From contig CASGEP010000005.1 of assembly GCA_949300515.1 (NCBI GenBank), positions 1 to 64,000 on the forward strand: DNA of 64,000 nt, in the 5' to 3' direction. The notes beneath the pieces were generated by a model. It was not told where the DNA came from, searched no databases, and worked only from the letters and a program-made list of their open reading frames with translations. The position numbers and the translations under genes are program-made. Of this stretch, positions 6,472-24,063 are shown piece by piece. The number at the start of each line of letters is the position of its first letter. The stretch's first letter is position 1. The stretch is from an uncultured bacterium (GTDB lineage: Bacteria > Cyanobacteriota > Vampirovibrionia > Gastranaerophilales > Gastranaerophilaceae).

Positions 6472-6936
6472 GTGGATTTAATTAATAACAGGACAAGAGA
6501 AATAGCAGCCCTCGCGCTGGACGGTTTGTACCAGCGCTCGCGCGCCATTTCGGCTAATACCGTGAACGCTACAACTCCGGGGTATCAGAGAAAAGACGTT
6601 GCCTTTGAAGATCAAATTCAAGAAATGATTGAACGGGAGGACTTAAAAGAACACATAAAAGTCCAAAATTCACAAAAAATCGTGGAAAATCCCGTCGAAG
6701 CCCTTAAAAAACAAGACCCGGCGCAGATTGCTTTTTTAAGAAGCTCAGTAGATAACGGTTTTTCGCCTGAGATAATCGGTGATTATTCAGACCCCATAAG
6801 CGCTGATGGCAACAATGTAAACATTGAAGCGGAAATGATGGACGAGGCAAAAACCGGTACACAGTACACAATCCTTACAAACCTTATGTCAAGGTCGTTT
6901 CAGGGGCTTCAAAGTGTCATAAGAGGACAAATTTAG
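6472..6936 (+). CDS. flgB: Flagellar basal-body rod protein FlgB
   Basis: Proximal rod protein of 154 residues. The N-terminal rod signature reads ALDGLYQRSRAISANTVN, followed by TPGYQRKDVAFE, the standard N-x-x-N-x-x-T-P-G-Y/F pattern. The C-terminal helix is in the MSRSFQGLQSVI region. The start is GTG, 6 bases after GGGAGG. It is first of seven ordered rod and export genes and 11 bases ahead of flgC. Confidence 0.95.
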   Translation: MDLINNRTREIAALALDGLYQRSRAISANTVNATTPGYQRKDVAFEDQIQEMIEREDLKEHIKVQNSQKIVENPVEALKKQDPAQIAFLRSSVDNGFSPEIIGDYSDPISADGNNVNIEAEMMDEAKTGTQYTILTNLMSRSFQGLQSVIRGQI

Positions 6937-6947
6937 GAGAGTATTAA

Positions 6948-7442
6948 ATGAGTTTTGATATTTTTGATATAGCTGGCTCGGGCATGCACGCGCAGAGGGT
7001 TATGATGGACACCGTTTCATCAAACATTGCAAATGCTAATACCACAAGAAATGCAAAAGGCGAAAGAGAAGTCTATACAAAAAAAGAAGTTACTTTTAAA
7101 GCGGTGTATAAAGACTCCCTTCGCCCCGCAATGCCGACAGGTTCGCACGATGTTCAAATGGATTTGATAAACGGTCCTTATTTAAGGGGCAGAGTGGTTT
7201 TTGAAGAAGACGGAATGGCGCAGGGCGTTATGGTGGATGAGATAAGAGAGTCTGAAAATCCTTATCGTATGGTATACGACCCGACACACCCCGATGCCGA
7301 TGAAGAAGGCATGGTAACCCTTCCAAACGTTAATGTGGTAGAGGAGATGGTTAATATGGTAAATGCTTCTAAGGCATACGAGGCAAATGTTACCATAGCG
7401 CAAACCACAAAAACAATGATACAGAGTGCTCTTCAAATATAA
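6948..7442 (+). CDS. flgC: Flagellar basal-body rod protein FlgC
   Basis: Rod protein of 164 residues. N-terminal SGMHAQRVMMDTVSSNIAN is the conserved rod signature. The C-terminal part has VNVVEEMVNMVNASKAYEAN, the conserved helix that packs in the rod. The DP-x-HPDADEEG segment before it is also typical of FlgC. Spacing to fliE is 12 bases. Confidence 0.96.
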   Translation: MSFDIFDIAGSGMHAQRVMMDTVSSNIANANTTRNAKGEREVYTKKEVTFKAVYKDSLRPAMPTGSHDVQMDLINGPYLRGRVVFEEDGMAQGVMVDEIRESENPYRMVYDPTHPDADEEGMVTLPNVNVVEEMVNMVNASKAYEANVTIAQTTKTMIQSALQI

Positions 7443-7454
7443 GGCAAATAAAAA

Positions 7455-7928
7455 ATGAGTTTTGAAATCAATACAAATATAGGTTCGATAGATAGTTTTA
7501 ATAAAAGTTTTGATAAAAGTATTAAAAATTTCGATAAACAGATTGATAATGCATCTGATTTTAACGAGATTTTTAATTCGCTGACATCAAACGAGCCTCA
7601 AAATACAAAAGAGCCGCAAAAAATAAAAGGCTCAATAGAGATGTTTTTGGGTGCGGATGCAATTAATGCCCAAAAGGTTGAAAATCTCTCCGAAACGGCG
7701 CTTATGGCGCGCGATATCGGCAGGGGAATATCAGGCGGAATAAATAATCTGAGCACTACCCAGAGGGCGGCTGAAGATGCCATGGAAACTTTTGCCGCAG
7801 GCGGCGATATAAGCGTGCATGAGGTTATGATTGCCTCTCAAAAGTCCACCCTTGCCATGCAAATGGCTATCCAGCTAAGGAACCAGATGGTAAACGCCTA
7901 TAACGAATTTAAAAATTTAAGAGTTTAA
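7455..7928 (+). CDS. fliE: Flagellar hook-basal body protein FliE
   Basis: FliE links the MS ring to the rod. The C-terminal 60 residues match the family (SVHEVMIASQKSTLAMQMAI, then LRNQMVNAYNEF). At 157 residues it is longer than the usual 100 or so; the extra part is an N-terminal polar region of about 55 residues rich in Asn, Ser, Asp and Phe. Its place after flgB and flgC supports the call. Confidence 0.94.
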   Translation: MSFEINTNIGSIDSFNKSFDKSIKNFDKQIDNASDFNEIFNSLTSNEPQNTKEPQKIKGSIEMFLGADAINAQKVENLSETALMARDIGRGISGGINNLSTTQRAAEDAMETFAAGGDISVHEVMIASQKSTLAMQMAIQLRNQMVNAYNEFKNLRV

Positions 7929-8011
7929 AAAGCTTAACAAATTGAACTAATTGCGAAAACAGTCTAAAATATTGTGGTAAACATACTCAAAAATCAGGGA
8001 TATTTAATAAA

Positions 8012-9748
8012 GTGAACGAACACCTAAAAGCGATGGCGCTTGATATTAAAAGGATTTGGGACAAATTTGACTTGAACCAGAAGTTTGTCATAGCCGCACT
8101 TTTGGTCATTGCAGTGGTTGTTTGCGTTTATTTTATTTTTAAGGCAACGGAGCCCAACTGGTCTGTTTTATATTCAGACCTGTCGCGCGATGACGTGGCT
8201 GCAATCTCTGAAAGCCTTAAAAAAAGCGGCTATGCTTTTAAATTATCGGAGGATAAATCGGCAATTCTTGTGCGCGAGCAGGATAAGGAAGATTTAAGGA
8301 TTTTCGTTGCGGAAAATGACCTTATAAAAGACTCTACTCCGGGGTTTGAGCTTCTTGATGACCTGCAGCTCGGTTCAACGGATTTTAAAAATAAACTTAC
8401 AAAACAGAGAATTTTTCAAGGGGAACTCACGCGCTCGATAGAGAAGATTAACGGTATTCAAAAAGCGCGTGTGCAGCTTGCCGAGCCTGAGCGCTCCGTG
8501 TTTTCGGATGATGATGAGGAGCCGAGCGCAAGCGTTATTTTAATACTTGAGCCCGGGTATCGCCTGAAACCCTCTCAAATTCTTGCAATTAAAAACCTTG
8601 TTGCGTATTCCGTTCCGCGCCTTACAAATGACAGGGTGTTTTTGACCGATCAAAACGGAAATGCGCTAAGCGAGGATGTTGCCAAAAATAACACGGATAT
8701 GCAGTCTTACAGAAGCGCTTTTGAAAAAGAAGCCGCAAAAAAAATTAAAGACACGCTTGAAACCATTATGGGCAAAGACAACGTATCCGTTCAGGTCAGC
8801 GCGGTTATGGATTTTAACTCCACCCGCTCAACCATCGAGAGTTATGTTCCCTCCGACGGAACCCAAAGCGGTGTAATTTTAGGACAGCAGAGCGAAAAAG
8901 AAATATATAAAAAACCTCAGCCTATTGTGCTTAAAAAAGACGAAGTCGCGCTTGACCCCGATAACCCTATCGGTCAAAATCAGCAAGGGCAGCAGGGCGT
9001 GCAAAATATCCAAAATGCCAACGCCCAGAACCCGCAGACTCAAAATGTTATGACGGTTGTTGAGGAGCAGGACGGCATAAGCGATGCGGATGAGAGCGCA
9101 AGAAACGTAACGGATAAAGTCCGCGGCAGAGAATTAAGCTATGAAAAAGAGAAAAACGCGGTTAATTACGCGGTTACAAAAGAGGTCAGACAGGTAGTGT
9201 ACGCACCCGGGTCGGTTGTGCGTTTATCTGTTGCGGTCGCAGTAAATAAAATTTTAACTCAGGAGGAGGAAGAAGATATTAAAAACCTTGTAATTGCGGC
9301 TGCAGGCATGGATATCGCGCGCGGAGATGTGGTAAATGTTTCAAGTCTTAAATTTATGGGAATTGATAAAGCAGAGCAGCTCCAAACGTTAAATGATGAA
9401 AGGTATGCAAAAATTATGGAAATGATGGAGTTTATATTTTCAAATGTTGCACCTCTTGTAGTTGTCCTTGTGCTTGGAATATTGGGACTCACTACATTCT
9501 CCTCAATATTTAAAAAACCCGAGCCTCCAAAACCCGTTTATCAAGATGACACGCAATACAACGGTTTTGACCCGTACCTTATGATGGGCAATAACGACGA
9601 TGTTGCAGGCGAATATATCGAACAAGACGATTCCGACCAGCCCGCTTTTACCTCTGTGGTCGACAGAAAGCGAGCCGAGATTACGGATATAATATTGAGC
9701 GACCCGCAAGACGCGGCAAGACTGCTTACTTCATACATAAAAGAGTAA
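8012..9748 (+). CDS. fliF: Flagellar MS-ring protein FliF
   Basis: The 578-residue MS-ring protein is the base on which the flagellum is assembled. It has membrane helices near residues 24-44 and 470-490. Between them lie the YscJ/FliF-type ring-building domains (LSRDDVAAISESLKKSGY, then GFELLDD and RVQLAEPERSVF) and a Gln/Asn-rich linker around 320-345. The C-terminal tail, with SDPQDAARLLTSYIKE, is the FliG-binding segment. The start is GTG, with AGGGA about 11 bases upstream. fliG follows after 26 bases. Confidence 0.97.
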   Translation: MNEHLKAMALDIKRIWDKFDLNQKFVIAALLVIAVVVCVYFIFKATEPNWSVLYSDLSRDDVAAISESLKKSGYAFKLSEDKSAILVREQDKEDLRIFVAENDLIKDSTPGFELLDDLQLGSTDFKNKLTKQRIFQGELTRSIEKINGIQKARVQLAEPERSVFSDDDEEPSASVILILEPGYRLKPSQILAIKNLVAYSVPRLTNDRVFLTDQNGNALSEDVAKNNTDMQSYRSAFEKEAAKKIKDTLETIMGKDNVSVQVSAVMDFNSTRSTIESYVPSDGTQSGVILGQQSEKEIYKKPQPIVLKKDEVALDPDNPIGQNQQGQQGVQNIQNANAQNPQTQNVMTVVEEQDGISDADESARNVTDKVRGRELSYEKEKNAVNYAVTKEVRQVVYAPGSVVRLSVAVAVNKILTQEEEEDIKNLVIAAAGMDIARGDVVNVSSLKFMGIDKAEQLQTLNDERYAKIMEMMEFIFSNVAPLVVVLVLGILGLTTFSSIFKKPEPPKPVYQDDTQYNGFDPYLMMGNNDDVAGEYIEQDDSDQPAFTSVVDRKRAEITDIILSDPQDAARLLTSYIKE

Positions 9749-9774
9749 ACTAGAAAAGAGATGAATTAAAGAGA

Positions 9775-10797
9775 ATGCTCCCGATACAAGTAGAAGCCAT
9801 GACACATTCACAAAAGGTTGCAGCACTTATGATAGTGCTCGGGCCTGCTGCGGCTTCCGAGATTATGAAAAATATAACGGACGATGACGTTTTGGAGCAG
9901 ATTACACTTGATATTGCGGCGATGAATAAATTGCCGATTGAAACTCTTGAAGCAATTGTGGATGAGTTCCATACTATTTTTCAGGCAAACTCCATGCTCG
10001 CTTCAGGCGGTATGAACTATGCTAAAACCCTTCTGGAAAAGGCTTATGGTACCGAGCAGGCAAATAAAATCCTTGACAGGCTGGTTACAATCTTAAACTC
10101 CAATCCTTTTCAGTTCTTTAATGATGCCGACCCTATTCAGCTTGCGACTTCTTTTCAAAATGAAAATCCGCAGCTTATAGCGCTCATTCTTGCTTATTTG
10201 AAGCCCGAGCAGTCGGCAAAAGTCCTAAATTGTCTGCCTCCCAATGTTCAGCACAAAGTGTCCCTAAAAATTGCACAGATGGAAACAACAAACCCCGAAA
10301 TTATATCGGAAGTTGAAAAAATTGTTGAAAGCAAGTTTTCAAATGTCGTTATACAGGATTTCTCAAAAGCCGGCGGCACCGAAACTCTTGCAAGCATTTT
10401 GAACAGAACAGACCGCGCAACCGAGAAAAACGTTATCGAAATGCTGGAGGAAGAAACTCCGCAGCTTGCTGAAGATGTCAGAAGTCTTATGTTTGTGTTT
10501 GAGGACATTGTTAATCTTGACGACAGAGCAATTCAGAGAATTTTGCGCGAAGTTGATACAAAGGACCTTGCACTTTCGCTTAAAGGTTCAAGAGATGATG
10601 TTAAAGATAAAATTCTTCGCAACATGTCAGAGCGTGCACAGGCAATTTTGCTTGAAGATATGGAGTATATGGGACCCGTTAGAGCGCGCGAAGTTCAGGA
10701 AGTCCAATCAAGAATTGTCGGTATTATAAGAATGCTCGAACAAAACGGAGAAATCGTCGTTGCGCGCGACGGTGCGGGAGATGAGCTGATTGAGTAG
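9775..10797 (+). CDS. fliG: Flagellar motor switch protein FliG
   Basis: Rotor protein of 340 residues coupling the MS ring to torque generation. The N-terminal domain shows QKVAALMIVLGPAAASEIMK. The middle domain carries ENPQLIALILAYLKPEQSA. The C-terminal torque domain has FEDIVNLDDRAIQRILREVD and the charged ridge that meets the stator. The length is normal. fliH starts 8 bases before its end, so translation is probably coupled. Confidence 0.97.
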   Translation: MLPIQVEAMTHSQKVAALMIVLGPAAASEIMKNITDDDVLEQITLDIAAMNKLPIETLEAIVDEFHTIFQANSMLASGGMNYAKTLLEKAYGTEQANKILDRLVTILNSNPFQFFNDADPIQLATSFQNENPQLIALILAYLKPEQSAKVLNCLPPNVQHKVSLKIAQMETTNPEIISEVEKIVESKFSNVVIQDFSKAGGTETLASILNRTDRATEKNVIEMLEEETPQLAEDVRSLMFVFEDIVNLDDRAIQRILREVDTKDLALSLKGSRDDVKDKILRNMSERAQAILLEDMEYMGPVRAREVQEVQSRIVGIIRMLEQNGEIVVARDGAGDELIE

Positions 10798-11731
10798 AAT
10801 AACGTCGGATAAAATAAATCTTGGCAATTCTATTGTCGTGGATTTTTTTGCAAATGAAGAGTTTGAGGAGAAAAAAGAGCGGGAGGAAGAAGAAAAAAAT
10901 GACCGGCCCGCAGTTTCAACCGAGGTTTTAAACAGACTTAATCTCCTTGAAAAAGAAGCGCAGAATAAAGCGCAAAAAATCATTGATGAAGCAAATGCAA
11001 AATCTGAGGAAATTATAAATGCCGCATCTCAAGAGGCACAGGAAATAAGAAGCAAGGCAAGCGCCGAGGTTGATATTTTAAATAAAAATGCAAATGAAAT
11101 TTTAACTCAGGCGCAAGAGCAGGCTAAAAACGCGCTTGATGAAGCAAATGCCAAAGCGCAGCAAATAAAAGAGGAAGCATCACAACAAGGGGCAAAAGAA
11201 GGCTATGAGGCGGGATACTCGGACGGGCTTAATAAAATAAAAGAAGAAATGCTCCAAAAAATTCTCGGGATGGATGAGATAGTAAAAAACGCTTTTGAAA
11301 TGAAACAGAAAATATTAAAAAGTTCAAAAGACGAGATTGTTAATCTTGTGCTTATGATTGCAAGAAAAATCTCCATAAGTTCAGTTGACGCTCAATCTGT
11401 CGCTTCGCTTGTTTCTAAGTCGCTGTCGCTTTTAAGTGATAAAGAAAACATTGAACTTATCTTAAGTGAAAAGTATGCAAGGCTTTTAAATGAAGTTTTA
11501 AGCGGGAATTTAAGTCCGGATGAAAATTGCGCGGATGATATCGATATAGACAAATTAAGAAATATAAAACTTACCTACAATTCAAAATTTCCGGATGACA
11601 CTTTAATTATTCAAACCCCAAAAGAGCGTCTGGACTTGAGTTTTGAACAGCAGCTAAATCAAATATCAAACGAATTTTTAAAAGAGTTAAATTCATCCGA
11701 TGATGATGGTGAGGATAGCGGCATTGGATAA
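10790..11731 (+). CDS. fliH: Flagellar export regulator FliH
   Basis: The 313-residue protein is mostly a charged Ala/Glu/Gln/Lys coiled coil (about 45-150), followed by a C-terminal domain (about 165-305) that in the family binds the FliI ATPase. The pattern GAKEGYEAGYSDGLNK marks the end of the coiled coil, as in FliH/YscL proteins. The start is TTG and overlaps the fliG stop. Identity rests on both sequence and operon position between fliG and fliI. Confidence 0.9.
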   Translation: MSRITSDKINLGNSIVVDFFANEEFEEKKEREEEEKNDRPAVSTEVLNRLNLLEKEAQNKAQKIIDEANAKSEEIINAASQEAQEIRSKASAEVDILNKNANEILTQAQEQAKNALDEANAKAQQIKEEASQQGAKEGYEAGYSDGLNKIKEEMLQKILGMDEIVKNAFEMKQKILKSSKDEIVNLVLMIARKISISSVDAQSVASLVSKSLSLLSDKENIELILSEKYARLLNEVLSGNLSPDENCADDIDIDKLRNIKLTYNSKFPDDTLIIQTPKERLDLSFEQQLNQISNEFLKELNSSDDDGEDSGIG

Positions 11732-13037
11732 ATTTGACTTTTCGCCTTATCATAAAATCGTAAACGAAATAAATCCCATTGTTAAAATCGGCAGGGTTGT
11801 TGAGATTATAGGACTTATAATCGAGGCTGACGGCCCAGAGTCATCCATCGGGGATTTGTGTCATATAATCTCGGATGATATGGAGCCGATATTCTGCGAG
11901 GTTGTGGGTTTTAGAGAGGGCAGAGTCCTTTTAATGCCGCTCGGCTCGATTGACGGGCTTAAAGCGGGTGCTAAAGTTGTAAATACGGGCTCTGATATGA
12001 AAGTAAAAGTGTCCGATTCTCTTTTGGGACGGGTTTTAGACGGTCTTGGAAATCCGATTGACTCTCTTGGTGAAATAAGTGCGGATAAATACTATTCGAC
12101 GGGAGGAAAAATCATCAACCCGCTTAAAAGAAAGCCTATTGATGAGCCGCTAAGCCTCGGCATAAGGGCTATTGACGGATTAATTACCGTCGGCAAGGGT
12201 CAGAGAATGGGTATTTTTGCAGGCTCGGGCGTGGGCAAAAGTACAACTCTTGCCATGATGGCAAAAAATACATCAGCCGATATAAATGTTATTGCCCTAA
12301 TCGGAGAACGCGGCAGAGAGGTAAGAGAATTTATAGAGCACACTTTGGGGGTTGAGGGCATGAAACGCTCCGTTGTCGTTGTTGCAACTTCCGAGCAGCC
12401 CTCTCTGGTCAAAATAAAAGCGGCGTTTGTGGCATGTGCGATTGCCGAATATTTTAGGGACAAAGGCAGGGACGTTCTTTTTATGCTCGATAGCGTAACG
12501 CGTATTGCTCTTGCACAGAGAGAAGTCGGGCTTGCAGTCGGCGAGCCGCCTGCCACAAGAGGATATACACCTTCCGTTTTTGCGCTTATGCCAAAGTTTT
12601 TAGAGCGTGCGGGCTGTAATGAATACGGCACAATAACGGGGCTATATACCGTGCTTGTTGAAGGTGATGATTTTAATGAGCCTGTGTCTGATACTGCAAG
12701 GAGCATTTTAGACGGGCACATTATGCTCTCGCGTGCTCTTGCGCATAAAAATCACTATCCCGCAATTGATGTTCTGCAGAGCATTTCACGGGTTATGAAT
12801 AATATTGTATCAAAAGAGCACAAAAGTGCGGCGGGCAAAATCCGCGCGCTGCTTGCAAGTTACGCCAAAAATGAGGATTTAATAAATATCGGTGCTTATC
12901 AGCGCGGCTCAGACCCTCTGACAGATAAAGCAATTTCGCTTATGGATAAAATTGAGGGATATTTAATTCAGCCGACAGATGATAAAACGGACTATCAAAC
13001 AAGTGTGGATGAGATTATAAGATTGGCGCAGATGTAA
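11700..13037 (+). CDS. fliI: Flagellum-specific ATPase FliI
   Basis: F1-beta-like ATPase of type III export, 445 residues. The P-loop is GSGVGKST (175-182); GERGREVREF and the Walker B region LFMLDSVTR follow. The listed ATG overlaps fliH by 32 bases. An alternative TTG at 11724 has GAGGA at 11711-11715 and would give a start at LDKFDFSPYH; it is equally plausible. No fliJ follows: the next gene is on the other strand. Confidence 0.96.
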   Translation: MMMVRIAALDKFDFSPYHKIVNEINPIVKIGRVVEIIGLIIEADGPESSIGDLCHIISDDMEPIFCEVVGFREGRVLLMPLGSIDGLKAGAKVVNTGSDMKVKVSDSLLGRVLDGLGNPIDSLGEISADKYYSTGGKIINPLKRKPIDEPLSLGIRAIDGLITVGKGQRMGIFAGSGVGKSTTLAMMAKNTSADINVIALIGERGREVREFIEHTLGVEGMKRSVVVVATSEQPSLVKIKAAFVACAIAEYFRDKGRDVLFMLDSVTRIALAQREVGLAVGEPPATRGYTPSVFALMPKFLERAGCNEYGTITGLYTVLVEGDDFNEPVSDTARSILDGHIMLSRALAHKNHYPAIDVLQSISRVMNNIVSKEHKSAAGKIRALLASYAKNEDLINIGAYQRGSDPLTDKAISLMDKIEGYLIQPTDDKTDYQTSVDEIIRLAQM

Positions 13038-14311: not shown

Positions 14312-15226
14312 ATGCTTAAAATAAACAATAACATAGCGCAAACAGGATTAAGGGTATTATTTGTAATGCAGCTTTTGCTGCGAGGTCCGATATCAAAAGC
14401 TCAAATTATAGAAGAAATTTCAAAAAACCCGCATTTAAAGGATGTAACCTCAGACACGGTTACTATAGATATTAATACGCTCAAGTCCGCAGGTTTTGAA
14501 ATTGCCTCCGGAAACAAGGGGAATAATTACTGCTATGAGCTGAAACTTATTCCGATTAAAATTAAACTTACAAAGAAAGAAATGAGAGTGCTTTCAGGTA
14601 CAAAGAAAGCTCTTTTTCAGTTTACGGATTACAGGTACATAATACGTATTTACGAAGTTTTTGAAAAAATTGCAAAAATGATTGAATCTGAAGAACAGGC
14701 GCAGTCGCTTTTAAATTTCGGTAATATTTTAAGGACAAATTTTAAAATTTTAAAAGAGCTTGAAGTTCACTGTAAGCACAACAACGAAATAGAGATATGC
14801 TATGCTTCTCCATCCGGTTCGGGGCATAATATGGCTGTTGTGTGTCAAAAAATTGAATATTCAAAGAAAAATGACAAACTGTATCTGTGGGGCGAGTGTG
14901 AAAAGTACGGCTCTGTTTATTTAAGAACCGACCACATCAAGCAAATAGCTAAAATCTTAAAAGTAAATTCCGACACAAAAATAAAGCCCAAAGAGTGTAT
15001 TTACAGAGTTTTAAATGACTGCTGCACACAGATTTGTCTTGACGGCAGTGTTGAAATATTAAAAATATCACGAAAAGATATTCTTTTAAGGGAAGAATAC
15101 ACAAATGAATTTAACTTAATACAAAAAATTCTCTCTTACGGGGACAATTTGCTTGAAGTAGAAAATGACGAAATAAGGCAAAAAATTCTCAAAATAGTTC
15201 AGGATGTGAGGAGCATGTACAGTTGA
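14312..15226 (+). CDS. WYL-domain-type transcriptional regulator, first of a pair
   Basis: The 304-residue protein has an N-terminal winged helix (about 10-75, with SKAQIIEEIS and TVTIDINTLKSAGFEI) and a divergent WYL-like domain (about 155-235, with KIEYSKKNDKLYLWGECEKY and then RTDHIKQI). WYL proteins sense ligands and control transcription; no target is evident here. It overlaps the next gene in a TTGA stop/start. The two share architecture but little sequence. A weak inverted repeat (AACTTA/TAAGTT, 14233-14256) lies upstream and could be an operator. Confidence 0.72.
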   Translation: MLKINNNIAQTGLRVLFVMQLLLRGPISKAQIIEEISKNPHLKDVTSDTVTIDINTLKSAGFEIASGNKGNNYCYELKLIPIKIKLTKKEMRVLSGTKKALFQFTDYRYIIRIYEVFEKIAKMIESEEQAQSLLNFGNILRTNFKILKELEVHCKHNNEIEICYASPSGSGHNMAVVCQKIEYSKKNDKLYLWGECEKYGSVYLRTDHIKQIAKILKVNSDTKIKPKECIYRVLNDCCTQICLDGSVEILKISRKDILLREEYTNEFNLIQKILSYGDNLLEVENDEIRQKILKIVQDVRSMYS

Positions 15227-16104
15227 AAAAAATAGATACTTCATATCGTATAATGAAAATTTTTAAAATGCTCTATAATAATCCCCGTACAATTAACGAG
15301 ATTATTAATGCGCTGCAGACCGATAATATATCAATCAACAAAGAAACTCTGGCAAAGTATTTTAAGACATTTAAAGAGTCAGGGTGCGAAATTAAAAAAT
15401 CAAAAGGCAGATACTCGATAGAAAGTATACCTTTTACCCTTAATTTGTCCGATGAAGATTACTATTATCTTGCAATTTTTGTTAATTTAGGCTCAAAACT
15501 CTATGATGAGAGTATGCGCCGGGATTTAACAAGTGCGGTTGAAAAAATTTTATCGCTTGCAAACAGGTGCAGTTTTGATGAGTATATAAAAAATCAGGAC
15601 AAGTCCGTAAAAATATCTCCCGAGCCTTTTATTTACAAAGAAAAAATTTCAAGACTCATAAAATACGGTTATGAAAACTCAAAGGTAAAAGTCTTGTATA
15701 AAGATAAAAAACTAACCGTTTCGCACATATCTTTTAAATATTGCGATAATGCGGTATATCTGCATGCTTTTAACGAAGATACAAAAAAATATGAACTTAT
15801 GCTTTTAAGTGCGATAAATGAGATATACTCTACTCCTGAAATTTCGGGTAAATCAGCGTTTGCGCCGTGTACGGTTTTTGAGATAAAAGGCAGGCTGATA
15901 AAGTCTTATACGCTTTATGAGGGCGAAAGGGTCATACAGGTAAAAGAGGACGCGCTTGTTATTTCAAACAATTACGAAGATAAAGCGGAGCTTTATAAAA
16001 GACTTTTAAGATACGGAACTCTGTGTAAAATTGTATCAACAAACGAGGATGTTGAAAGATTTAAACAAATGCTCGATAAGGTCGAGGGCGCGCTGTTGAG
16101 ATAA
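15223..16104 (+). CDS. WYL-domain-type transcriptional regulator, second of a pair
   Basis: The 293-residue protein has an N-terminal winged helix (about 8-68, with RTINEIINALQ and KETLAKYFKTFKESGCEI) and a WYL-like sensor half (about 145-210, with KVKVLYKDKKLTVSHISF then CDNAVYLHAF). The start is TTG, sharing bases with the TGA of the preceding gene, so the two are probably made together and may act as a heteromer. It ends 2 bases from the convergent TPR gene. The function of the pair is unknown. Confidence 0.7.
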   Translation: MKKIDTSYRIMKIFKMLYNNPRTINEIINALQTDNISINKETLAKYFKTFKESGCEIKKSKGRYSIESIPFTLNLSDEDYYYLAIFVNLGSKLYDESMRRDLTSAVEKILSLANRCSFDEYIKNQDKSVKISPEPFIYKEKISRLIKYGYENSKVKVLYKDKKLTVSHISFKYCDNAVYLHAFNEDTKKYELMLLSAINEIYSTPEISGKSAFAPCTVFEIKGRLIKSYTLYEGERVIQVKEDALVISNNYEDKAELYKRLLRYGTLCKIVSTNEDVERFKQMLDKVEGALLR

Positions 16105-16106
16105 AA

Positions 16107-16826
16107 TCAGTTTATGTTGTTTTTCTCGTAGCTTAATATTATATTTCTTATTTCATAATCGTCGGGGTTGGTTGTGTAAGCGTGTCTGTAGTACTGCAGT
16201 GCAAGCTCTTTGTTGTCGGTATTTTCAAGGATGCGTGCAATGTTAAAATAGGCATCGGTGCAATTCGGGTCTATATCTATTGCAAGAGTGTATTCAAAAA
16301 CACTCTCCCTGTATTTGCCCGAAAGCCTCAGTATATCTGCTTTTAAAAAATGTCCCTCAAGGCTGAGCGGGTTTTTATCCAGCGCTTCTTCAATCGCCGA
16401 AAGTGCGTTTTTGTATTTTTCTTTGTTTTTGTAGCTGAGCGCCTGTTTAAAGAGTTCCTCGTAAGCAGGCTCAATTTTTGCCGCAGCGGCAATTTTGCCG
16501 TTTTTCAGACTTATGTTATATTCTTTTGGTATTTGTTGTTTAGAGGGTTTTTTAAGGTTTGCTCTCTCGATTGTGTAAGTTTCGCTGAAAGATAGCATAT
16601 TAAGAGGTCTGAAACCTTTAAAATAGGCGACGTTAACTTCTTCATCTTTTATCTCGGGCAAACTTTTTGTGGTGTATTTTGTGCAAGACGGGATTTGATT
16701 TTCCAAATCCAGATAAAATTCATACACAACTCCGGCGTTTATCTTCTCTGCTGCAAATATTGCGCCCGAGCCGCATAAATACAAAATAAATGCTGATAAC
16801 AATACATTTTTGGTGATTTTAATCAT
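16107..16826 (-). CDS. Exported TPR-repeat protein
   Basis: The 239-residue protein begins with a signal peptide (about 1-25, ending GAIFAAEK). A unique N-terminal half is followed by three tetratricopeptide repeats (about 120-235, e.g. YKNALSAIEEALDKNPLS and YRESVFEYTLAIDIDPN). TPRs mediate protein contacts, here probably in the periplasm. It is last in the minus-strand operon MCP-CheA-HD-TPR and overlaps the HD gene by 8 bases. Its link to the chemosensory genes is by operon only. Confidence 0.75.
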   Translation of the reverse strand: MIKITKNVLLSAFILYLCGSGAIFAAEKINAGVVYEFYLDLENQIPSCTKYTTKSLPEIKDEEVNVAYFKGFRPLNMLSFSETYTIERANLKKPSKQQIPKEYNISLKNGKIAAAAKIEPAYEELFKQALSYKNKEKYKNALSAIEEALDKNPLSLEGHFLKADILRLSGKYRESVFEYTLAIDIDPNCTDAYFNIARILENTDNKELALQYYRHAYTTNPDDYEIRNIILSYEKNNIN

Positions 16827-17427
16827 TTTTAAGGCAAACTTTTACTTTAAATACATCCTCAAAAAGGGCTTTTTTCTTATTAAAAACCTCATACATCCCT
16901 TTGTTAAAGATTATATTTATGCCGGGGTCTAAAATCAATGTATTTTGCCTAAAATCATATGTTAAGAGTATATTTTCAACGCTCTGCGAGTGACACGAGT
17001 CAAGCGCATCCGCTATTCTTAAGATCGAGGAGATGACTCTTACCTTGTTTTTATCCCCCTCATCAAGAGAACAAAAAAGCCTGTGCTTATGCTCCTTTGG
17101 TTTAGAGCCTCTGTGATATCTTATGCAAAGTGCCGCAACTTTTACTTCCCGCTCATTCAGACCGTCTATTTTATTTTCCAAAACCAGCTTGCAGCCTGCT
17201 TTGTTGTGGGGTTTTTGTGTTTTGTATTCAAGAAACGCCCCGATGTCATGCAAAAGCGCACTATAGGAGATTAATTTTTCCGCATTTTCAAACTGCAGAT
17301 TTTTGTTGTGCGGAAAAATTTTTTTTAACCGTGCATACAGCTCCAAACTCAAAAATTCAACATGTTTTGAGTGTTCGATGTCATTTTTTGATGTGCAATA
17401 GTTTTTTATGTATTGTTCAACCTTCAT
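16819..17427 (-). CDS. HD-domain protein (Ppx/GppA C-terminal-like)
   Basis: Cytoplasmic protein of 202 residues. HD-superfamily metal ligands are visible: His19/His22 in IEHSKHVEFL, His60-Asp61 in LLHDIGAF, His74, His105 in IRYHRG, and a late Asp in RIADALD. The arrangement resembles the C-terminal half of exopolyphosphatase/guanosine pentaphosphatase proteins and other HD phosphohydrolases. The substrate cannot be read from sequence. It overlaps the CheA end by 11 bases and the TPR start by 8, so it is tightly coupled to the chemosensory operon. Confidence 0.75.
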   Translation of the reverse strand: MKVEQYIKNYCTSKNDIEHSKHVEFLSLELYARLKKIFPHNKNLQFENAEKLISYSALLHDIGAFLEYKTQKPHNKAGCKLVLENKIDGLNEREVKVAALCIRYHRGSKPKEHKHRLFCSLDEGDKNKVRVISSILRIADALDSCHSQSVENILLTYDFRQNTLILDPGINIIFNKGMYEVFNKKKALFEDVFKVKVCLKND

Positions 17428-20400
17428 TTGCAGCCTTTTTCAGAAAACTGCCGACAAGCCTTACAAAGCCTTCCTGCTCAAATTTGTCTTTTTGTACATA
17501 TGCCTGTGTGCCGGCTTCTTTAAACGCTCTGCCCCATTTTGACTCGGGAAGGGAAGTAAGCACAATGATGGGAACGGTTGCCCAGCGGCTTTCTTTTCTT
17601 ATGTGTTTTACAAACTCGAGTCCGCTCATTTTGGGCATTTCATTGTCTGTTATAATTAAGTCAAAATGCTCGTTTTGCATTTTTATAAGCGCATCGGGCG
17701 CATTTGTTGCTATTTGGACACGGTAGCCGTAGCTTTGAAGGATGTTTTTCTGCAGTGTTCTTGTTGTGAGAGAGTCATCTACAACAAGTATTTTGTGGGC
17801 ATAATTTTCCTTCATTCTTATGGCTTTATTTGAAGCCGTTATTTTTGTTATTTTCTTTGGCAGAGTGGTGGAGAATATGTCGCCGACATTTAAAATGAGG
17901 CATATTTCCCCGTTTGCAAGCGTTGTTATGCCCGAGATATTTTTTACTTTAAACAGCGGCGCCTCAAGCCTTTTGTGCAAAACTTCCTGATCGCAGACGA
18001 GTTTTTCAACAATTATCCCTATTGTGGAATTTTCCGATTTTACAATCATAAGAGTATACTTGTTTGCCTGTCTTGGTACGTTTTCAAGCTCGAGAATCTG
18101 CGAGAGCGTGTAAATCGGAATTACGTCGTTATTGTGTACGTAGTAGTTTTTGCCGTCGCGCTCAAAAACATCTGTCGTATCAACCCGAAGCACCGTTTTT
18201 ATTGATGAAGTGGGTATTGCATAAAGCTGGTTTTGTTCGGATACGATAAATGTTTTAATTGTAGCCATTGTCGCGGGAAGCTCTATTGTGACGACCGTAC
18301 CTTTTTGAAATTCGCTGTATATGTCCACCCTGCCGTTCAGCTGCGAGATTTTCGTGTGGACAATGTCAAGTCCCAGACCTCTGCCTGAAAGCTCGGTAAC
18401 GGCATCACCCGTTGTAAAACCGGGGTAGAAAACTATATTTATAAGGTGTTCTTCGTCAATGCCGTCTATTTCTTCCTGAGTTAAAAGACCTTTTTCAAGG
18501 GCTTTTTGCTTTATTTTTTCAACGTCAAGCCCCCTGCCGTCGTCTGTTATGTTAATTACAATCTTGTTTTCAAGGTGTTTTGCACTTATTGATATTTTGC
18601 CGACAGGGTTTTTGCCCGTTTCTTTGCGTTCCGAGGGAAGTTCTATGCCATGGTCGATAGAATTTCTTAAAATGTGTATGAGCGGGATTTTAATTTCTTC
18701 AATAATTTTTTTATCTGCCGCAACATCCGAGCCTTCGGTTATAAATTCTATCTGTTTGCCTTTGTCTTTGGCTATATTGTGCACCATACGCGGAAAAAGG
18801 TGAAATATTGTAGACAGGGGCAAAATGCGCATGTTTTTTACCATGCCCTCAATTTCCGTTGTTGCGCTGTTGAGCTTTGAGTCGTTTTCCTGCATTTGCT
18901 TGAAAAGGTCCGTGGTTTCTTTTACCAGATGAACCATCCTCTCGGCGTGGTAGTTCTGCAGAACCATAAGCTGTTTGTTAAAAGCGGAAATTGCCCTCGG
19001 GTCGAGAGCCACGCCTAAAGTAGAGTTTGCAACGTATTTTCTGTCGAAATATTTTATGTAGTAACCCATTTTATTAAAGCTTTTTTGCCACTCAAGAAGT
19101 TCGTTTTGGATATTTTTTGCAACGTTTAAATGTTCGTTTGTTTTAATTCTTGTAATAATAAGGTCGCCTATTTGATTTACAAGTTTATCAAGCTTAAAAG
19201 AGTCGATTCTGAGCGTTTTTATGTCGCTTGTATCAATCGCGCTCATCCAGTCCTGAGTGCTTTTTTCCGTCTTTTGGGGGCTTTGTTTCGGTTTCGGTCT
19301 TGCGATGTTTAATTTTGACATCTGCTCAACTATTGTTATTTTTTGCAGCAGAAGTTCTATTTCAAATTTTCTCTCCTCGGGCTTTATTCCGTCGGGTTCA
19401 AAGATTTTTCTTGTGTTTTCGCAAATCTCTTTTATGGCTTCAAGAGTGTCTGTTTCAAGGTTTTTGGAGTTTGTTTGATACAGATTTAAAATTCTTAAAA
19501 CGGATTCAAATATTTTTTTGATTTCAAGATTTCTTACTTTTGTGAGCACCTGAGTCAAAAGCTCTTTTATATCGGGTAAAAATTCCAAATTAATCTCAAG
19601 AAGGCTGAGTTTTTCATATATTCTGTCGATTAAGTCCGCTATTATTTCTTTGTCGCTTGCTTTATTTTGTTTTATCGCATCTTCGGCATCGCTCGATAAA
19701 AGTTCGTTTGCGATTTCAAAATAATTTTGGGTGCCCACGCCCCTTTCTTTGCAATAGTTTGTGAAAAATTCCTCTATTGCATCGACTTTTGAGTTTAACT
19801 CAAGAATTTCATTCTCGCTTATTTTTTTTGTATTAAGGGCGGAAACGTATCTTCCCATCTCGCCGATAAGCTTTTCAAGAGGCTCTATGTCAAGCTCCCT
19901 TGCTATTATGTTAAGCTCGGCAAGGGGTGCTTTTATTATGCCTATTTCGCCAAAACTGTCGCTTTGTCTTGCTGAGGAGAAAATGTATATTATCTGCACA
20001 ATAAGTTCCTCAATTTTATTGAGTTTTGAGAGCAGTTTTTTTGTACTTTCGCTGCAGTTATAATGTGCTTCAGGTTTTACTTCCCGATTTTCATCCGCAA
20101 GGGCAATTTTATCTAATTTTTCTAAAAACTCTTTAGTATCGTCCGTAATGTATTCTTTTTTGTTTTCGACCGTTTTGTTTATCAAAATCTGAATGTGTGA
20201 AAGCGCTTCGGATATTGTATCCGTTACATCATCCAAAGCTTCAGCTCTGCCTTCTTTTATTAAACCCAGAACATCTTCAATTTTGTGGGCGACATTTTGT
20301 ATATTGCTAAAACCCAGCATTCTTGCGGAGCCTTTAAGGCTGTGGATATCTCTTGCCAGACGGATAACTATATCAAGGTTTTTCGGGTCTTTTTCGAGCG

Positions 20401-20494
20401 CAAAAAGGTTTTTATCCATGGATTGCAGAATTTCTCCGCTCTCCTGCTGGAAGATATTCAGTATTTCATCCAGTTCATCATCCAGAAAATCCAT
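17417..20494 (-). CDS. Hybrid chemotaxis kinase CheA (HPt-kinase-CheW-REC)
   Basis: The 1025-residue protein has, in order: an HPt domain with phospho-acceptor His51 (DIHSLKGSARML); a long helical region (about 130-410); a CheA dimerisation helix pair; an ATPase domain with N-box HILRNSIDHGIELPSERK (near 606), DDGRGLD and GRGLGLDIV; a CheW-like domain (about 746-885); and a C-terminal receiver (about 898-1020) with VVDDS and the phospho-acceptor Asp near 948 in ITDNEMP. A receiver fused to CheA is typical of Pil-Chp and cyanobacterial Pix/Hmp systems rather than E. coli-type CheA. It lies 12 bases after the MCP gene. Confidence 0.95.
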   Translation of the reverse strand: MDFLDDELDEILNIFQQESGEILQSMDKNLFALEKDPKNLDIVIRLARDIHSLKGSARMLGFSNIQNVAHKIEDVLGLIKEGRAEALDDVTDTISEALSHIQILINKTVENKKEYITDDTKEFLEKLDKIALADENREVKPEAHYNCSESTKKLLSKLNKIEELIVQIIYIFSSARQSDSFGEIGIIKAPLAELNIIARELDIEPLEKLIGEMGRYVSALNTKKISENEILELNSKVDAIEEFFTNYCKERGVGTQNYFEIANELLSSDAEDAIKQNKASDKEIIADLIDRIYEKLSLLEINLEFLPDIKELLTQVLTKVRNLEIKKIFESVLRILNLYQTNSKNLETDTLEAIKEICENTRKIFEPDGIKPEERKFEIELLLQKITIVEQMSKLNIARPKPKQSPQKTEKSTQDWMSAIDTSDIKTLRIDSFKLDKLVNQIGDLIITRIKTNEHLNVAKNIQNELLEWQKSFNKMGYYIKYFDRKYVANSTLGVALDPRAISAFNKQLMVLQNYHAERMVHLVKETTDLFKQMQENDSKLNSATTEIEGMVKNMRILPLSTIFHLFPRMVHNIAKDKGKQIEFITEGSDVAADKKIIEEIKIPLIHILRNSIDHGIELPSERKETGKNPVGKISISAKHLENKIVINITDDGRGLDVEKIKQKALEKGLLTQEEIDGIDEEHLINIVFYPGFTTGDAVTELSGRGLGLDIVHTKISQLNGRVDIYSEFQKGTVVTIELPATMATIKTFIVSEQNQLYAIPTSSIKTVLRVDTTDVFERDGKNYYVHNNDVIPIYTLSQILELENVPRQANKYTLMIVKSENSTIGIIVEKLVCDQEVLHKRLEAPLFKVKNISGITTLANGEICLILNVGDIFSTTLPKKITKITASNKAIRMKENYAHKILVVDDSLTTRTLQKNILQSYGYRVQIATNAPDALIKMQNEHFDLIITDNEMPKMSGLEFVKHIRKESRWATVPIIVLTSLPESKWGRAFKEAGTQAYVQKDKFEQEGFVRLVGSFLKKAANEG

Positions 20495-20506
20495 CTAGCG
20501 TGCCTA

Positions 20507-21559
20507 TTACTCCTCGTCTATATTTGATTTGAAAGTTTTTGAAAGAGTTTGTATATTCTCGATATTTTGGAAATTTTCTTCGGTTGTTTTGTAGTTATTT
20601 TCAAGCATAGAGTTTATTTCACCGAGAGCACTTTCCGTTGTTGCGGTATCTGTCGAGATTTTTTTGGAGGAGCCTGTCATATCGTTTATACCCTGAGAGA
20701 TTTCATTCATCAAAAGTATGAGCTGTTCAATATTAGAGCCGATATTGTGGGCAAGGTCAATTCCCGATTCGACTTCTTTTGTACCTTCTTCCGTTGCAAG
20801 TACGGTCGAGTTTGCACTCTGCTGGATGTTTGTTATCAGCGAGGTAATTTTTGATGTTGCCTGTTTGGACTCGTCGGCGAGTTTTCTGATTTCGCCCGCG
20901 ACAATTGCAAAGCCTTTGCCGTGTTCGCCCGCGCGCGCAGCTTCGACGGCAGCATTTAGGGCAAGCAAGTTTGTTTGTTCCGCAATATCTTCAACAAGAC
21001 CGATGGTTGAGGATATAGACTGGATATAGTCTGATAATTCAAGGATTAATTCGGCAATAGTTTGAATTTTATGCCTTATCGTAAACATTTTCTCAATATT
21101 TGCTTTAACCGCGTCGTACTCGGTATTTGTATAGTTAAGTGATTCTATCGCTTTTTCTTTTGTATTTGTGATTATTTCGTTTAAATCGCTGCTTTGATTT
21201 TTAAGATTTTCAACCAGAAGTTTTATGTTTGATAACTTTGCAAAAGTGAGATTTATGTTTTCTTTCTGGACGGATGTTGCACCTTCGATTTTTTTTGCGT
21301 TATCTATAGCATTTTCAAGGAGTAAATTAATCTCGCTCGCCGCTTTCTTTTTATAGAGTTTTTTTGTTGCTTCAAAAATTACAACCGTCAGGCAAAACAA
21401 AAGAACAAGCATCCCCGCGCTCAGCGCCCGCGACATTTCCGTAAATTCCACAACTATAAAGACAAACACGAAAATAATGAGTATAACAATTAAATCTATG
21501 GTTTGTTTTCTTGCAAAATGTTCGTTAATACCGTTCTTTTGTTTGATTTGTTTGGACAT
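20507..21559 (-). CDS. Methyl-accepting chemotaxis protein without a periplasmic sensor domain
   Basis: The 350-residue receptor has two membrane helices (about 21-38 and 46-62) joined by only a few residues, so no periplasmic ligand domain. The rest is a cytoplasmic coiled coil with the conserved signalling tip at about 192-230 ([18 protein letters not shown] then [15 protein letters not shown]). Input must come from the membrane, the cytoplasm or a partner. It heads the minus-strand operon with CheA, HD and TPR genes, and AAGGGGA precedes its ATG. No CheR or CheB methylation enzyme is seen in this window. Confidence 0.93.
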
Positions 21560-21624
21560 AAATCCCCTTTTTTGAAAAAATAATGTATAATTTATACGTT
21601 CAATTATATAAGATATTTAACCGT

Positions 21625-23016
21625 ATGGCAAAAAAAGTACTCATAATAGATGATAGCACAGATGAAGCAAATGCAATCGCGGAAATTTTTGAAAAATCCG
21701 GCTACAGCACCGTGCAGACAAGCGACACTTTCGGCGCGCTGGAGTTTGTGTATAAAGAGGCTCCGGACTTGATAATTCTGGACATTTTAATGCCCGATTT
21801 GGGCGGATATGAACTCTGCCGGATGATTAAGGCGGATGAAACGGCAAAAAATATCCCTGTCGTTATGTATTCAAAACTGGACAAAAACATAGACAGATTC
21901 TGGGCTTTTCGCTCCGGCGCAAATGCTTTTGTAAATAAGGGCGAACTTACATCGGAACTTGTGAAGGTGTGCGGCGAGGCAGTAGAAAATCTGCCTGTTT
22001 CGCTTGAAATAAAAGGAAAGCTTTTGAGTACAAAAACAAAGGTTAATGCGCGGGCGGATATTTCAAGTAAAGATGCACTTGTAAAAGACTTTGGTCTTAT
22101 TAAAGAGGTTGATGCCGATGCCGATGTGCTCGCGCTTAAGATACTCGGTACCATAAGCCGATATTTTAAGTATGACTGTGCCATGGTTTCATTTAAGGAT
22201 GCAAACAACGGCAGCACTTTGTTTTTTGATACAGGTTCTCTTTTGATGGATGAGAAAGTTTTTGATGAGATAAAGCAGACTGTTGCAATTAAAGACCCTA
22301 TTGCGGACGTTATTATGCAAAAAGAGGAAAAAACCCAAAGCGTTGTGGATTTGAGTGATTTTTTTGTCAAATATGAGTATGAAATAAGCGCCGAGTCAAA
22401 TCTTATAGGGTATTTATACCTTTATGCCATAAACAACCTGAACTCCCGCCAGCTAAAACTTATCGGCACGATAAAAGACCTTGTGGAGCACCTTATGCGC
22501 TTAAGGTACTTTAAAGTGTCGAAAAAGGACAATAAAAGCAGCGCTAACCCGAGGAAATTGTACACCCAGCTTGATTTTGACAGAATTTTAAGCTACGAGT
22601 GCGAATGGCACAAAAGAAACAGTGCACCCTTGTGCCTTGCATTTGTTGAGGTTGAGGCAATAGAGAATATTGAAAGTACTTACGGGAACCAGTATACGGA
22701 TTTATTGCTTGCAAAAATTTCAAACTTTTTAAGCAGCTGCCTGAGTGACGGGGATTTTATCTACAGAAACGACGAAAATATTTTTGTCATACTTATGACA
22801 AATTCCGACTATCAAGGCGCCCATCGCAAACTCGAGTATCTTGTGGAAAAAATAAAAGATAAATCAATCTCGCCCGGCGAAGATGAGAGAATAAGCGTAA
22901 AAGCGGCGGCTCTGGTTTTGGACGAGAAGTATAAAAATCACTATGAATACGTCGATGCGCTCTATGATGTATTAGAGCTTGCAAGACATTCAAAAGAGGA
23001 TATTGTGTTAAAGTAG
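21625..23016 (+). CDS. Receiver protein with degenerate GGDEF domain
   Basis: The 463-residue protein has an N-terminal receiver (about 3-120, with LIIDDS and phospho-acceptor Asp in ILDILMP), a middle region of GAF-like size (about 165-300), and a C-terminal diguanylate-cyclase-like fold (about 315-455). The active-site signature reads RNDENIF at about 381-387 in place of R-x-G-G-D-E-F, so cyclase activity is unlikely. The frame is open from 21583, but the ATG at 21625 (MAKKVLIIDD) fits receiver starts. It is divergent from the MCP-CheA operon and abuts the CheW gene. It is a plausible output regulator phosphorylated by CheA. Confidence 0.85.
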   Translation: MAKKVLIIDDSTDEANAIAEIFEKSGYSTVQTSDTFGALEFVYKEAPDLIILDILMPDLGGYELCRMIKADETAKNIPVVMYSKLDKNIDRFWAFRSGANAFVNKGELTSELVKVCGEAVENLPVSLEIKGKLLSTKTKVNARADISSKDALVKDFGLIKEVDADADVLALKILGTISRYFKYDCAMVSFKDANNGSTLFFDTGSLLMDEKVFDEIKQTVAIKDPIADVIMQKEEKTQSVVDLSDFFVKYEYEISAESNLIGYLYLYAINNLNSRQLKLIGTIKDLVEHLMRLRYFKVSKKDNKSSANPRKLYTQLDFDRILSYECEWHKRNSAPLCLAFVEVEAIENIESTYGNQYTDLLLAKISNFLSSCLSDGDFIYRNDENIFVILMTNSDYQGAHRKLEYLVEKIKDKSISPGEDERISVKAAALVLDEKYKNHYEYVDALYDVLELARHSKEDIVLK

Positions 23017-23022
23017 GTGTTT

Positions 23023-24063
23023 ATGAGTAATATGGAAAATCAAATTGTCGAAGCGGAGCAAAATGGCATTGTTGAAGCGCAAGAGGAAAAAATATACACG
23101 ATAGTAAGTATCTCGGATGACATTTATGCACTGGATGCAAAAAACGTGCTTGAAGTTTTAAAATTTGCCGAACTTTCACATCCTGAGAGGCTGCCTTCTC
23201 ACATTGCGGGGCTTTTTGAGTACGACGGCAAAATTATTAATGTTGCGGATATAAAATCTGTTTTAAACATTGAACCTACCCCTTACGATTTAAACTCCAT
23301 GATTGTAATTATCAAGGTCCAGGACGATATTTTCGCAATTATGGTTAACAAAGTAATTGATGTTAAAAGAATTGATACATCCATCCTGCAAAAAATTCCC
23401 TATAACACCGAGCATAATTTTATAGAATCGATTTTTGACTATAACGCTATGCAGTGCAACGTTTTAAACCTGCAATCTCTCGGATACTGGATTTTAAATA
23501 ATCGGGACACGGGCGAAGGAAAGAGCGGTTTTGATTTAATTCCAAAAGACGAACACTCGCTTGCGGTTTTGCGCAAGAGAAAACTTGAATACATAGAAAA
23601 AACAAACAAAAATCCCTATGCAATTTTATCCGATAAGGACGAGTTTGTGTCATTTAGCGTATGTGATAATAAATATTGCATAAAGATGAATGATATCAGG
23701 GGTTTTTATAAGCTGCAGGAAATAAAAATGATAAAAGTTCCCTGTACGCCCGAGTTTATTTTGGGGCTTGTGAATATAAAGGGTGATTTTATTTGTGTTG
23801 TGGATGTTAAAAGTTATTTTCATTCGCAGCACCCCCACTATAATCAGACGGGCACAATAATCGTGCTTAATTCGGATGAGTTTAAAATAGGCGTTCTGGC
23901 GGATACAATAGGCGACAATATTCAAATAAAACCCGATGAAATATTGACCTTAAAAAAGCAGGAGAGCAGAAACGAGCTTATGCAGTATGTAAAAGACGGC
24001 GAGATTTATTTAATAATAAACGTACCCGAAATGCTCGCAAATGATAAATTGTACGTCAGATAG
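23023..24063 (+). CDS. Double CheW-domain coupling protein
   Basis: The 346-residue protein has two CheW-like domains (about 20-165 and 205-342). The first shows YTIVSISDDIYALDAKNVLEVL-type features and the second VSFSVCDNKYCIKMNDIRG and VPCTPEFILGLVNIKGDF. CheW couples receptors to CheA; a tandem form may bridge the array or replace separate CheW/CheV proteins. The frame opens at GTG 23017, but ATG 23023 after TAGGTG is preferred. It follows the receiver gene directly, on the strand opposite the MCP-CheA operon. Confidence 0.88.
   Translation: MSNMENQIVEAEQNGIVEAQEEKIYTIVSISDDIYALDAKNVLEVLKFAELSHPERLPSHIAGLFEYDGKIINVADIKSVLNIEPTPYDLNSMIVIIKVQDDIFAIMVNKVIDVKRIDTSILQKIPYNTEHNFIESIFDYNAMQCNVLNLQSLGYWILNNRDTGEGKSGFDLIPKDEHSLAVLRKRKLEYIEKTNKNPYAILSDKDEFVSFSVCDNKYCIKMNDIRGFYKLQEIKMIKVPCTPEFILGLVNIKGDFICVVDVKSYFHSQHPHYNQTGTIIVLNSDEFKIGVLADTIGDNIQIKPDEILTLKKQESRNELMQYVKDGEIYLIINVPEMLANDKLYVR

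Follow-up and report, generated by a model that had tools for sequence, protein, structure and literature searches.

Wsp systems have been published from beta- and gammaproteobacteria only (PMC8552884). A chemosensory array from an uncultured bacterium of the gut-associated, non-photosynthetic cyanobacterial family Gastranaerophilaceae, found in a 64,000-nucleotide stretch of DNA that was analysed as a whole (the window), resembles Wsp (WspA-F, WspR) in several respects. It has a CheA-REC hybrid kinase, a dedicated MCP and two CheW units, and in six genera its REC-GGDEF protein bears the signatures of both a cyclase and an I-site. There are however a number of differences. First, no match to CheR (WspC) was found in the window genome and the MCP is sensorless, with no periplasmic sensor domain. 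Second, the output protein has an extra, apparently GAF-like middle domain, and there is an HD partner. Third, the cyclase is dead in the window genus.

The cyanobacterial Pix/Tax/Hmp systems share with the array phylum-level kinship, a set of MCP, CheA-REC and CheW without CheR, and the presence of type IV pili, seen here as a co-occurring PilB-type ATPase. The array locus, on the other hand, is without a PATAN-type regulator or a second receiver and has a REC-GGDEF protein and an orphan HD protein. The flagellar and chemotaxis genes of the order have been read together as swimming motility (PMC5877343), yet the array lacks two features of F-class flagellar chemotaxis: CheR, and a phyletic distribution coupled to that of a complete flagellar switch. 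Clusters of the alternative-function type occur in other Vampirovibrionia families (L175-L177; family f3, another order, large genomes), where CheW, CheR-TPR, CheA-REC, MCP and CheB genes lie together. The array is like them in its CheA-REC, CheW and MCP but not in the CheR-TPR and CheB that they carry, and their CheA, of about 760 aa, is about 31% identical. Plasmid relatives of the CheA are too distant to class the system.

Compared by gene and domain content, the array comes closest to Wsp in its output and to Pix/Hmp in having no CheR, and it falls outside the definitions of both. It is best filed among the chemosensory systems with alternative cellular functions. A first-pass annotation, made from the sequence of the window, had called the locus unlike E. 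coli chemotaxis, which is supported, and closer to Pix/Pil-Chp. The latter fits the cyanobacterial systems as to the missing CheR, but not as to the output: this is, like that of Wsp, a REC-GGDEF protein, and six other genera have its cyclase signature intact. No description of an HD-GGDEF-CheA locus, or of a PPX/c-di-GMP combination, was found in the open-access literature.

Open reading frames and Pfam profiles confirmed in place all six genes that had been described as a chemosensory locus with HD and TPR partners and a degenerate GGDEF protein (Table 1), and the arrangement is not due to chance. The TPR, HD, CheA-REC and MCP genes are on one strand and the genes for the REC-x-GGDEF and double CheW proteins diverge from them on the other. 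CheA is fused to a receiver, as annotated. The "tandem CheW" does consist of two CheW domains, but both are in one protein. Similarly, the HD gene overlaps the cheA frame, by 11 nt, whereas the TPR gene overlaps not cheA but the HD gene, by 8 nt. The response regulator most likely starts at 21625 (MAKKVLIIDD), which is the start in most orthologues; the frame is also open from the upstream ATG. The flgB-fliI genes lie beside the array locus, at 6472-13037 of the window. The close relatives of the window genome are Candidatus Gastranaerophilales MAGs, including Ca. Galligastranaerophilus.

Table 1. Genes of the array locus and the adjoining putative regulators, with positions in the window
Feature	Position	Strand	Evidence and remarks
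Two tandem HTH/WYL-WCX-like putative regulators	14312-16104	+	Neighbourhoods; convergent with the TPR gene
TPR protein	16107-16826	-	PF13181 E=7e-15; apparent signal peptide, judged by eye
Stand-alone HD protein	16819-17427	-	PF21447 E=1e-13
CheA-REC hybrid kinase, 1025 aa	17417-20494	-	Pfam: Hpt, H-kinase_dim, HATPase, CheW, REC
MCP, 350 aa	20507-21559	-	PF00015 E=7e-37
Response regulator: REC, putative GAF-like middle region, degenerate GGDEF	21625-23016 (ATG also at 21583)	+	PF00072 E=2.5e-21; PF00990 E=7e-12
Double CheW protein, 348 aa, two CheW domains	23017-24063	+	PF01584 E=8e-39, 2 stretches; conserved across the family

The receptor does lack a sensor domain. Its hydrophobic windows, at about 15-47 and 42-69, correspond to two transmembrane segments joined by a very short loop, so that hardly any residues lie between them. 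Across 39 MCP orthologues, good conservation is limited to the tip of the signalling hairpin, and most of these lack the methylation-site consensus. In the kinase, the P1 His, the N-box N and H, and the G2 box are invariant in 39 of 39 homologues, and the phospho-Asp of the receiver is kept in 36 of them. Other receivers are encoded in the window genome, among them a lone REC of about 120 aa elsewhere, which could be the real target of CheA.

A profile search of the window genome (G000, a 94.6% complete assembly of 1.72 Mb) gave 0 CheR matches, and a Pfam scan of the locus gave no CheB. Thus the report that neither gene is seen stands for the genome in the case of CheR, and for the locus only in the case of CheB. 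Weak CheR-family hits of 250-400 aa were obtained in 15 of 25 genomes, among them G095 of the window's genus; these were judged to be unrelated SAM methyltransferases, as against the hit in genome G032 (E=6e-58), which lies inside a che operon. This second, F-type operon of G032 (L155) coexists with the array and encodes a CheA of 690 aa, CheW, MCP, a canonical CheR, a receiver protein and a FliN-domain protein. A control genome, Synechococcus elongatus, showed MCP and no CheR in the same searches, and therefore, among Cyanobacteria, an array lacking CheR is nothing unusual.

All genes of the block recur at 12 full-length loci of the same genus in named assemblies, as do the flanking genes, fliI/S1 at one end and MptE-like/g26060 at the other; a 13th locus, L041, is partial. 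A CheA of the array kind is found in 67 of 146 genomes of the family, about half. The stable core consists of the MCP and CheA genes divergent from the double CheW gene; the REC-GGDEF, HD and TPR genes vary by genus. A clear MCP is present in 27 of 42 representatives, and all but one of the 27 have exactly one, as does the window genome; the exception, G032, has five. In G018 (genus g19), where no MCP was detected, a divergent CheA-like ORF of about 700 aa is kept (L154:697-2817).

Two of the variable genes behave differently. In all 31 genomes that hold both, the HD gene comes immediately 3' of cheA in the same orientation, and it is truly part of the chemosensory system. The TPR gene occurs only in g1, g37 and g27, and the TPR protein is an accessory add-on. 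The two HTH/WYL-like genes accompany it there and travel only with it; the HTH, WCX and WYL matches in their orthologues are weak and below cut-off. Hence, of the two genes said to be built into the system, the HD gene is, and the TPR gene is near cheA in three genera only. It had been proposed that the idea would fall if both genes were not beside cheA in relatives; the HD gene stays there and the TPR gene in part does not. A genome of a sister family, G263, has MCP-CheA; the same contig carries a stand-alone HD gene some 35 kb from it, linked to neither CheA nor GGDEF. The core therefore probably predates the family, and the link to HD was either gained within the family or lost in G263.

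The HD protein is what remains of a Ppx/GppA exopolyphosphatase, its orphaned C-terminal half, as judged from PF21447, from its match to exopolyphosphatase sequences in the PDB (E=1e-34) and from the fold of its model (pLDDT 92.9), which superimposes on residues 309-484 of H. pylori PPX/GppA (6pc3) with a Z of 20.4. It corresponds by sequence and fold to domain III, and the catalytic N-terminal half is absent from the gene. The same HD domain ends PPX proteins of 530-590 aa in other orders of the class. The Ppx catalytic domain, PF02541, gave no match in 13 of 13 genomes of the family, nor in G263; it is present in three of three genomes of other orders. The catalytic half has apparently been lost from the whole family. 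An earlier suggestion of a role in (p)ppGpp or polyphosphate levels fits the Ppx/GppA likeness, but with no catalytic half in the 13 genomes only an activity of the HD site can remain.

H19, H60, D61, H74, H105 and D140 are invariant in 42 of 42 stand-alone HD proteins. H19/H60-D61/H74/H105/D140 are the putative metal ligands, and by this alignment they are intact; H19, H60, D61 and D140 make up the H...HD...D set of metal ligands that marks HD-superfamily phosphohydrolases. The E. coli and Deinococcus PPX proteins have HE where the stand-alone protein has HD, and ten full-length relatives from the class have E at the position of D140. Since a complete HD site suggests an enzyme, the protein is probably a phosphohydrolase.

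Motif alignment showed that the GGDEF active site is lost in the window genus, where it reads YRNDENIF. The annotation of a degenerate, non-cyclase domain (RNDENIF replacing RYGGEEF) is correct for this genus. At the same place, the REC-x-GGDEF proteins of g37, g27, g17, g16, g25 and g9 have RYGGEE[I/L/V/F], the catalytic Asp and the RxxD inhibitory site; that of g22 is likewise degenerate. The loss of the active site is lineage-specific. Within the window genus the median dN/dS was 0.09 for the dead GGDEF domain and 0.15 for REC plus the middle region, both rough values with synonymous sites near saturation. The dead domain is under strong purifying selection, as a conserved non-cyclase part; its decay as a pseudogene was rejected by the value of 0.09. 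The middle region has no Pfam match and is probably GAF-like by the order of its strands and helices. The structure model of the response regulator has a low pTM (0.48), and the domain arrangement was not read from it.

The HD gene also occurs without the array. In 36 of 36 examined genomes with HD and without CheA it is divergent from the gene for a short, roughly 220-aa GGDEF protein, which nearly always has a GGEEF site. In a tree of GGDEF domains, the REC-GGDEF and short GGDEF proteins are separated together from 16 paralogues (98/97). Those of the short proteins that were sampled form one group (90/81), which joins the REC-GGDEF proteins of g16 and g25 (83/88). The simplest history is that the array and the REC and middle domains were deleted, with the HD-GGDEF output pair left over. 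The pair is not strictly interdependent, because g39, g34 and g6 have HD beside CheA without a GGDEF nearby, and in g16, g25, g26 and g30 the GGDEF protein is intact and HD was not detected.

With moderate confidence, we consider the locus to encode a methylation-free array with a WspR-like REC-GGDEF protein as its dedicated output and with an HD protein, probably a phosphohydrolase, built into it. The sensorless receptor, with its two transmembrane segments, and the double CheW protein would together control CheA, a coupling suggested by their observed domain content. Phosphate from CheA would then pass to its own receiver, acting as a sink or for tuning, and to the REC-GGDEF protein, as the intact His and Asp residues and the gene linkage suggest. 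In the six other genera the phosphorylated output, with its complete diguanylate cyclase signature, would produce c-di-GMP. The output that phosphorylation switches in the window genus is most likely non-catalytic, namely the binding of a nucleotide or a partner. The HD protein, which would hydrolyse or read a related guanine nucleotide, is most likely an enzyme that acts on, or is regulated by, the same guanine-nucleotide pool, because the HD-GGDEF pairing is kept even where the array has been lost. The end target would more likely be a surface behaviour than flagellar reversal.

The persistence of the pair in the 36 kinase-less genomes as divergent neighbours, together with the invariant metal site of HD, is also what would be seen if the HD and GGDEF-family proteins formed a two-part switch of their own, for c-di-GMP or pGpG turnover or readout, with the chemosensory core as an optional input. 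This is possible, and we put it forward tentatively; it overlaps the explanation preferred here and differs from it in the unit of function. It does not sit easily with the genomes in which HD persists beside CheA without a local GGDEF, nor with G263, where HD is unlinked to both. In a stronger form, which we regard as unlikely, HD and GGDEF would make up a module, in which the HD protein is a new kind of phosphohydrolase or effector for c-di-GMP (or pGpG). The array would be a detachable input to this module, and the former cyclase of the window genus would be a phospho-switched nucleotide sensor controlling HD.

A PilB-type ATPase is found in every array-bearing representative, and the three genomes without it (G018, G040, G070) are also without MCP. 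This would be consistent with a cyanobacterial, Pix/Hmp-type control of type IV pili in which the REC-GGDEF protein replaces the PATAN-type regulator, as would the combination of CheA-REC, MCP and CheW without CheR, S. elongatus likewise having MCP and no CheR. However, neither a PATAN regulator nor a second stand-alone receiver is encoded at the locus, and PilB is present in the other array-less genomes as well, which makes the correlation weak. We think this reading rather improbable as an account of the locus. Nearly all genomes of the family have PilB, and the independent lineages are few, so that its support for a pilus target is weak in general. Type IV pili or surface adhesion may nevertheless be a somewhat likelier final target than the flagellar switch.

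The relation to flagella was seen from the FliMN_C proteins. Flagellated array-bearing genomes have three or more of them, the best of which matches strongly; a FliM/FliN set is present in the window genome. The array is also present in 11 representatives from six genera (G037, G021, G026, G061, G088, G130, G002, G042, G049, G077 and G012) whose one or two FliMN_C proteins are weaker and which are without strong FliM/FliN. Genus g40 (G040, G070) has a FliM/FliN set (four FliMN_C matches) but no MCP, CheA or PilB-type ATPase, and its flagella are apparently without any chemosensory array. Thus the array does not follow the complete flagellar switch. A flagellar chemotaxis system acting on rotation through CheY-FliM, with HD and GGDEF as passengers, is the most doubtful of the readings: the flgB-fliI neighbourhood, the FliM/FliN set of the window genome and the swimming-motility reading of the group's genes (PMC5877343) favour it, but it is weakened by the 11 representatives and by g40, by the separate canonical F-type operon with CheR in G032, and by the lack of a stand-alone CheY at the locus.

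Some of the genomes without the FliM/FliN set have kept an export core, and they are therefore not called non-flagellated outright. G021 has a compact export cluster (L185:7115-10829) with a FliMN_C-like protein of 405 aa, FliO, FliP, FliQ and FliR and no strong FliM/FliN, and G042 has a FliI/YscN-type ATPase (L058:5627-6973). By their gene content these look like a reduced flagellum-derived export apparatus. A FliMN_C protein of about 400 aa also occurs in array-less genomes.

The array looks like a minimal methylation-free unit, with one receptor, one kinase and one coupling protein, tied to c-di-GMP chemistry, in contrast to the reading as swimming chemotaxis. The family offers a natural series, from an intact cyclase to a conserved dead cyclase and then to genomes that have lost the sensory input altogether and retain the output pair. 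In addition, it presents a split enzyme: the HD half of Ppx/GppA, with a complete metal site, was retained and rewired after the apparent loss of the catalytic half. The orphan HD protein makes the function of the C-terminal HD domain of Ppx/GppA directly testable.
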